Source of the DNA: an uncultured bacterium
GTDB lineage: Bacteria > Cyanobacteriota > Vampirovibrionia > Gastranaerophilales > Gastranaerophilaceae
NCBI GenBank assembly: GCA_902777605.1
Contig: CACYUI010000013.1
Coordinates: 1-64,000, forward strand
Direction: 5' to 3'
DNA: 64,000 bases
A program made the translations under genes and the position numbers. The notes under the pieces are model-generated. The model worked only from the letters and a program-made list of their open reading frames with translations. It was not told the DNA's origin and searched no databases. Positions 1 to 41,825 of the stretch are shown here, piece by piece (the stretch's first letter is position 1; each line of letters begins with the position of its first letter).

Positions 1-360
1 GAAAATATTAAAGAATATTCAAAAATAATATCATCTGTTAAACATAGTTTTTCTCATGATGTTGGGCAAGTATGCCCAACCTACCTTTGTTCACAAGATA
101 ATTTAAAAATAGGATATAAGAATAAAAGAGAAAAAGGATTATTTCAAAGACGATTTTATGAACACACGATATTAAATCAATCCGAACTGAACAATCATAT
201 AAATTATATTCACTATAATCCTGTCAAACACGGATATGTAAAATGTGTAAAAGATTGGAAATATTCTTCTTTCCATAAATTTGTTGAGGATAAATTTTAT
301 GATAAAAATTGGGGAAATCCAAATGATATAGAAAATATCAAAAATTTAGATTTTGAATAA
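1..360 (+). CDS. REP-associated tyrosine transposase (RAYT, Y1_Tnp/IS200-like), 3' part
   Basis: The reading frame is open from the first base and stops with TAA at 358-360, so the start lies outside the window. The C-terminal part carries the RAYT signature: a QRRFYEHTI-like block (residues about 50-58), then YIHYNPVKHGYV and W-K-YSSF. RAYTs are single-copy transposase-like enzymes that cut and join DNA at REP palindromes. The HUH metal-binding motif expected near the N-terminus is outside the window. Residues about 20-28 (DVGQVCPTY) are encoded by a REP-type hairpin at 61-84 that keeps the frame open. That block is absent from typical family members as I know them, so it looks like an in-frame insertion. 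Whether the product is still active cannot be judged from this fragment. Confidence 0.8.
   Translation, partial: ENIKEYSKIISSVKHSFSHDVGQVCPTYLCSQDNLKIGYKNKREKGLFQRRFYEHTILNQSELNNHINYIHYNPVKHGYVKCVKDWKYSSFHKFVEDKFYDKNWGNPNDIENIKNLDFE
61..84 (-). repeat. REP element inside the RAYT gene
   Basis: An 8-bp perfect stem (GTTGGGCA / TGCCCAAC) encloses the 4-nt loop AGTA and is followed by CTAC. Read on the minus strand this is GTAG followed by a palindrome, the layout of classical REP elements recognised by RAYT enzymes. The same 24-nt word occurs at 41499-41522 and, one base weaker, near 41802-41825. Confidence 0.8.
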
Positions 361-41469: not shown

Positions 41470-41490
41470 GTTGGGTTTCACCCAACCTAC
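41470..41490 (-). repeat. REP element, TTC-loop type
   Basis: GTTGGGT-TTC-ACCCAAC is followed by CTAC. On the minus strand it reads GTAG then a 7-bp palindrome. Confidence 0.8.
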
Positions 41491-41498
41491 AGACTTGT

Positions 41499-41522
41499 GT
41501 TGGGCAAGTATGCCCAACCTAC
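41499..41522 (-). repeat. REP element, identical to the copy in the RAYT gene
   Basis: GTTGGGCA-AGTA-TGCCCAAC is followed by CTAC, a 24-nt identity with 61-84. It lies 8 nt after the previous REP, in the same orientation. Confidence 0.85.
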
Positions 41523-41772: not shown

Positions 41773-41802
41773 AGACTTGAAAATTGCACTCAAAAGTTAT
41801 CA

Positions 41803-41825
41803 TTGGGCAAGTATGCCCAACCTAC
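41803..41825 (-). repeat. REP element, AGTA-loop type
   Basis: TTGGGCA-AGTA-TGCCCAA is followed by C and CTAC. The outer G-C pair of the longer copies is replaced by A-C. Confidence 0.75.

Follow-up and report, generated by a model that had tools for sequence, protein, structure and literature searches.

According to the published rule, every RAYT (REP-associated tyrosine transposase) reading frame has an inverted REP on each side and coevolves with this pair (Nunvar 2010, PMC2817692). The GTAG-hairpin orientation of a REP is the one used by TnpA-REP, and the reverse orientation is inactive in assays (PMC8266576). Intragenic GTAG/CGTC REPs that lie wholly inside open frames and encode extra residues have been described (Di Nocera 2013, PMC3733652); the parts of that work drawn on here also list REPs overlapping RAYT ends, without naming a RAYT that has a REP inside it. 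Most study of how RAYTs act on REPs has concerned REPs lying outside the gene. In published work the REP tetranucleotide is treated as a guide for cleavage-site choice, and RAYTs do not, to our knowledge, copy themselves. Here we describe a clade of RAYT genes in which a REP lies within the reading frame, starting from a 64,000-nucleotide stretch of DNA (the window) whose features are listed in Table 1.

The window begins where contig C13 begins, in a genome of 2.0 Mb and 43 contigs, and the RAYT gene found there is cut by the contig end. An earlier note, made from the letters of the window, had recommended retrieving the full gene from the adjacent contig. The missing 5' (N-terminal) part turned up at one end of C1, a contig that carries it on the opposite strand (C1:1-204(-)). 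The C1 end and the window start have GAAAATATTAAA in common, 12 bases that are in frame, and an uninterrupted full-length relative (L055) is 95% identical to the window/C1 gene; for these two reasons, the 183-residue gene pieced together from the two contigs is credible. Against Pfam Y1_Tnp the L055 protein scored 41.8 bits, and against the NCBIfam model REP_Tyr_transpos (NF047646) it scored 133.5 bits, where the cut-off is 80; the window fragment by itself had no Pfam Y1_Tnp match. The full-length relative has the HUH motif, the downstream catalytic tyrosine and the family-model match of a RAYT, and the best match of the predicted fold is PDB 4er8 (E 5e-13), E. coli TnpA-REP in complex with a REP hairpin. 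Flanking by two inverted REPs was not found: there is an upstream REP, and its inverted partner lies within the frame. Membership of the protein among the RAYTs rests on the family models, and the gene layout is the variant part. Among named relatives, most are gut and rumen Gastranaerophilales MAGs, an order in which the genome is tentatively placed. We additionally observed that several assemblies are broken inside RAYT genes (C1 start, C13 start, G014:C134, G028:C96 and G017:C1/C26), which suggests unresolved copies or strain mixtures.

Table 1. Features of the window, with positions on its forward strand.
Feature	Position	Strand	Details
RAYT gene, 3' two thirds, catalytic-tyrosine half	1..360	+	open frame; cut by contig end
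Embedded REP	61..84	+	8-bp stem GTTGGGCA/TGCCCAAC, loop AGTA, foot CTAC; encodes VGQVCPTY
Separate dispersed repeat after the RAYT stop codon	361..407	+	~50 bp; AATTCTCAAAA..TGTTCTTTCTTCTCAAACCGACTGTTATTTTACA
REP of other type	41470..41490	+	GTTGGGTTTCACCCAACCTAC; flanks canonical RAYTs of the same family
Dispersed REP, between genes	41499..41522	+	identical to the embedded REP
Dispersed REP	41802..41825	+	one mismatch

The earlier note had claimed that the RAYT frame stays open through a hairpin-plus-CTAC word that recurs as a free REP, and both statements were borne out: the 24-base REP GTTGGGCAAGTATGCCCAACCTAC is in frame, contributes exactly eight codons, and is repeated without a difference between genes elsewhere in the window, where shuffled sequence is expected to hold 0 copies. 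In the genome as a whole, copies with no more than 3 mismatches number 7, and the reversed control gave none; a wider form, GTTGGG-N(2-14)-CCCAACCTAC, is represented by 33 REPs. The embedded hairpin has the form of a GTAG-type REP, a palindrome of 20-40 bp with GTAG at one end and dispersed copies; it is not extragenic, whereas the copies near 41500 are intergenic. Its active orientation (GTAG-hairpin) is on the template strand. An inverted REP with the same stem lies about 22 bp upstream of the ATG in this gene (C1:227-250); for the clade the distance is about 25 to 50 bp. Within the protein, the embedded REP falls in the linker that leads from the HUH motif to the catalytic tyrosine, where its peptide overlaps a low-confidence loop of the predicted structure (residues 88-109). 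The note's further proposal, that the REP adds residues between blocks that are normally close together, is right in comparison with E. coli TnpA-REP, relative to which the linker is longer (about 18 residues), and fails within the family: RAYTs of the same family that lack the REP have a similar linker length, so the REP peptide replaces linker and is not an addition to it. The separate repeat of ~50 bp that begins at the RAYT stop codon has some 20 copies in the genome (L004-L054), often near REPs.

We found the embedded REP at the same place and in the same codons in 58 RAYT genes of this bacterial family, and this shared position led us to reject a recent insertion. The 8-bp stem is perfect in 52 of these genes and no longer perfect in six. 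In a tree of 77 family RAYTs, a single branch separates the 58 from the other 19 (support 91/77; present in 92% of bootstrap trees); the 19 have no embedded REP, most of them carrying REPs before the start and after the stop. The internal hairpin was also absent from the 16 RAYT genes that we checked in other cyanobacterial families. Decay of the gene, which the note had raised as something the REP might mark the start of, is contradicted by dN/dS values of 0.10-0.15 in ten gene pairs, by which the protein is shown to be still needed, and by retention of the REP in genes down to ~58% protein identity. We therefore rejected gene decay, with dN/dS at about 0.1.

The stems fall into types. Type A has the stem GTTGGGCA with the loop AGTA, and type A' the same stem with a CGAC foot; type B has GTTGGGGT with the loop AGAA; type C and the singleton Q have GTTGGGCT and GTTGGGCA, respectively, with a TTAC foot; and type F has GTCGGCTT or GTCGGATT. 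Within types, the REP codons are nearly frozen at synonymous sites, with synonymous differences of 0.061 (mostly in the loop codon) against 0.333 elsewhere in 21 type-A genes, and of 0.000 against 0.344 elsewhere in 7 type-B genes. For both types the seven REP codons are the 7-codon window of lowest synonymous divergence in the gene. Close homologues that keep the peptide in unrelated codons, which the note had named as grounds for abandoning its view, are the opposite of what we observed, since the codons are the same even at dS near 1. Across types, two-sided compensating changes occur in 4 of the 8 stem pairs, and the stem covariation score is 0.433 against 0.136 when shuffled (reached in 0 of 500 shuffles), a signal that is lost when the partners are slid by one to three columns. 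Selection on the peptide VG...PTY, with the palindrome as a by-product, would fit the recurrence of V, G, P and T in every type. However, these are the residues encoded by the outer stem, the middle residues vary between types as stem pairing demands, the peptide lies in a low-confidence loop, and it is missing from RAYTs of other cyanobacterial families. We regard this reading as very improbable, and rejected it on the synonymous conservation of the REP codons. On these comparisons, the embedded hairpin appears to be an old, clade-marking feature that is kept for its DNA.

The perfect hairpin and its covariation would also be expected if the REP were kept as an mRNA structure, acting in translation pausing, mRNA stability or decay and unrelated to recognition by the RAYT. 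The REP does fold in RNA as a local hairpin, which is stable, and the note's proposal of folding in the mRNA may hold, but the 180 nt around the hairpin fold only modestly better than shuffles (z -1.7). What this reading leaves unexplained is the relation of the embedded REP to the one ahead of the ATG. In all 35 genes in which both REPs are readable, the two stems are identical (shuffles, mean 13.3 and maximum 22), the feet are equal in 31 and the loops in 21. Because the stem types are clade-wide and follow the gene tree, the 35 matches amount to only about four independent changes; REP type follows the gene tree without exception. Also unexplained are the co-change of the foot from CTAC to CGAC, in which both REPs are altered in six genes of the CGAC-foot group and only the embedded REP in four, and the breaks of RAYT genes at the REP described below. 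We consider a role confined to the mRNA unlikely. Pairing of the upstream and embedded REPs over the full 24 bp was rejected as the conserved feature, the loops differing in 14 of the 35 pairs and the stems never, and the single hairpin seems to be the conserved unit. In L061, L064, L065, L066 and L068 both gene REPs naturally have a GTCG foot in place of GTAG, and dispersed REP copies with the GTCG foot occur in three genomes (G036, G041 and G002).

A matched pair could instead be produced by homogenisation, if dispersed REPs repeatedly overwrite the embedded one by gene conversion or insertion, with no selection involved. Dispersed REPs of the matching stem are indeed commoner in type-A and type-F RAYT genomes than in others, an excess that holds after subtracting two copies as the gene's own (p 7e-5 and 3e-5, kinship between genomes ignored), and hybrid REPs are found at the junctions of two broken copies (L309 and L303). 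In type-B genomes, by contrast, dispersed B REPs show no excess when the copies belonging to the gene are left out of the count. Of 21 type-B RAYT genomes, 12 have no exact-stem copies besides the one or two of the gene itself, and the embedded REPs there are intact; thus the matched REP pair is maintained by the gene and not by a surrounding population of REPs. The agreement of REP type with the gene tree speaks against overwriting as well, and we judge homogenisation to be quite unlikely. Several genomes also contain dispersed REPIN-like units of ~187 bp, in which a GTGCAA-rich spacer lies between inverted REPs that are often of different types (L123:338-524, L043, L124, L125 and L127).

Copies of the gene that are broken end preferentially at the REP. 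With contig edges, low-identity or distant copies (L139, L223 and L252) and short internal pieces left out, and with L307/L308 counted once, 13 of 14 broken RAYT copies among the loci analysed break within 30 bp of the end of the embedded REP, the exception being L311 at -115. The set comprises six 5' halves (L082, L088, L089, L248, L249 and L299) and eight 3' halves (L086, L303, L304, L305, L307, L309, L310 and L311). For evenly spread breaks the probability of this outcome is ~3e-10, a value that serves as a guide only because the 53-bp window was set post hoc and part of the candidates were chosen as partial matches. Among the 5' halves, L082 is exactly the 325-bp segment bounded by the upstream REP (at its GTAG) and the embedded REP (at its CTAC); it has foreign flanks and is 95% identical to the window/C1 gene. 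Two of the 3' halves have composite junctions: in L309 a type-A left arm is joined to a type-B right arm, and in L303 a different REP type stands ahead of a type-B 3' half. Two genes are chimeric (L076 and L078), with a type-B 5' part and linker and a type-A 3' part; the switch of type lies some 70-100 bases past the REP, near the EHTI motif.

Half-gene copies may be what is left when a deletion between the embedded REP and a neighbouring REP has removed part of a full gene. C-terminal remnants begin at the REP as N-terminal ones end there, and foreign or hybrid REPs stand at the junctions, as such deletion would leave them; the exact bounding of L082 by both REPs, at 95% identity and between foreign flanks, fits it poorly. 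We searched for an empty site for L082 and found none, so movement and REP-REP deletion are indistinguishable. We hold a deletion origin to be a real possibility at somewhat less than even odds, and it is compatible with the embedded REP being a second cognate site. In L297:413-720 a canonical RAYT is cut short, its downstream REP following immediately on the 5' half; this internal-deletion derivative hints at a possible route by which a REP could enter the frame. Among full-length genes, L055, L056, L057 and window/C1 are closely related RAYTs in different gene contexts, their homology beginning exactly at the upstream GTAG. A precise right end for the full-length unit was rejected, homology stopping anywhere between the stop codon and ~+50. 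One genome (G185) has two RAYT loci with equal scores.

We propose, with a probability of roughly 60%, that the embedded hairpin serves the RAYT's own unit as its second cognate REP site and is kept for its DNA. Weighing against this proposal are the missing excess of dispersed REPs in type-B genomes, the small number of independent stem changes, the six genes whose stem is no longer perfect, and the chance that deletion produced the half-gene copies or that the hairpin acts in the mRNA. The inner REP would stand in for the REP that normally follows the stop codon: the 5' REP is still just ahead of the start codon, while its inverted partner sits in a probably disordered stretch that links the HUH domain to the tyrosine helix. 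If one protein recognises both REPs, their stems, and mostly their feet, would change together. Action at the two sites might consist of cleavage, strand exchange or REP-REP recombination, by which the 5' half of the gene could be released, copied or replaced; half-gene copies that end at the REP, and leftover 3' halves that start there, would be the result. We take the two REPs as the RAYT's cognate sites on account of their matching, their conservation and the breakpoints, and we infer that the RAYT itself recognises and cuts the embedded one. The earlier note had suggested that a REP inside its own mobiliser might be self-targeting, and this suggestion gains support from the upstream match (stem 35/35, foot 31/35), the conservation as DNA and the breaks at the REP.

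The benefit of keeping the site would, by inference, be control or self-limitation of the RAYT in cis. Candidate gains are autoregulation by binding to its own gene, self-limitation by cutting it and mobility of the 5' half; cis control appears likeliest because the hairpin is kept although it could easily be lost synonymously, and because dN/dS is 0.10-0.15. More specifically, and doubtfully, the in-frame cleavage site could be a built-in brake or exchange point, at which an abundant enzyme cuts, disables or swaps its own 5' half. If this were true, a domesticated transposase would be self-limiting by way of a site within its gene, and protein and DNA would have to coevolve to keep that site. 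Many natural genes, among them matching variants of stem and foot, bear a coding constraint and a DNA-site constraint on one and the same 24 bases, and each gene points to its own likely substrate, so that coevolution of enzyme and site is directly testable; synonymous recoding could remove the REP site with the protein unchanged.

Searches of the open-access literature turned up no RAYT gene described as carrying a conserved internal REP, and the embedded-REP clade is a variant of the REP-RAYT arrangement. With the described RAYT/TnpA-REP/REPtron systems it has in common the HUH and Y motifs, the family model, the fold of 4er8, matching inverted REPs, RAYT-REP coevolution and the GTAG foot. 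It differs from the REPtron in that the second REP is inside the reading frame, there is mostly no REP after the stop, and full-length copies end shortly past the stop codon without one. In canonical RAYTs of the same bacterial family the second REP follows the stop codon, in line with the published rule. The intragenic REPs of Di Nocera 2013 are, as far as that account is drawn on here, sporadic, in unrelated genes and mostly at non-conserved sites, in contrast to the one conserved site in the RAYT clade; conservation at the DNA level and a match to a flanking REP, both present in the clade, are not given in those parts of the source (PMC3733652). Rickettsia palindromic elements (RPEs) are likewise in-frame palindromic repeats tolerated as peptide. 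RPEs occur in many unrelated genes and have no tie to a transposase of their own, whereas the embedded REP lies in the RAYT gene itself. Finally, the RAYT 5' half has the layout of a REPIN, two inverted REPs around a spacer (Bertels and Rainey 2011, PMC3116915), with one exact dispersed copy (L082); unlike in a REPIN, the spacer consists of the RAYT gene's own first half.
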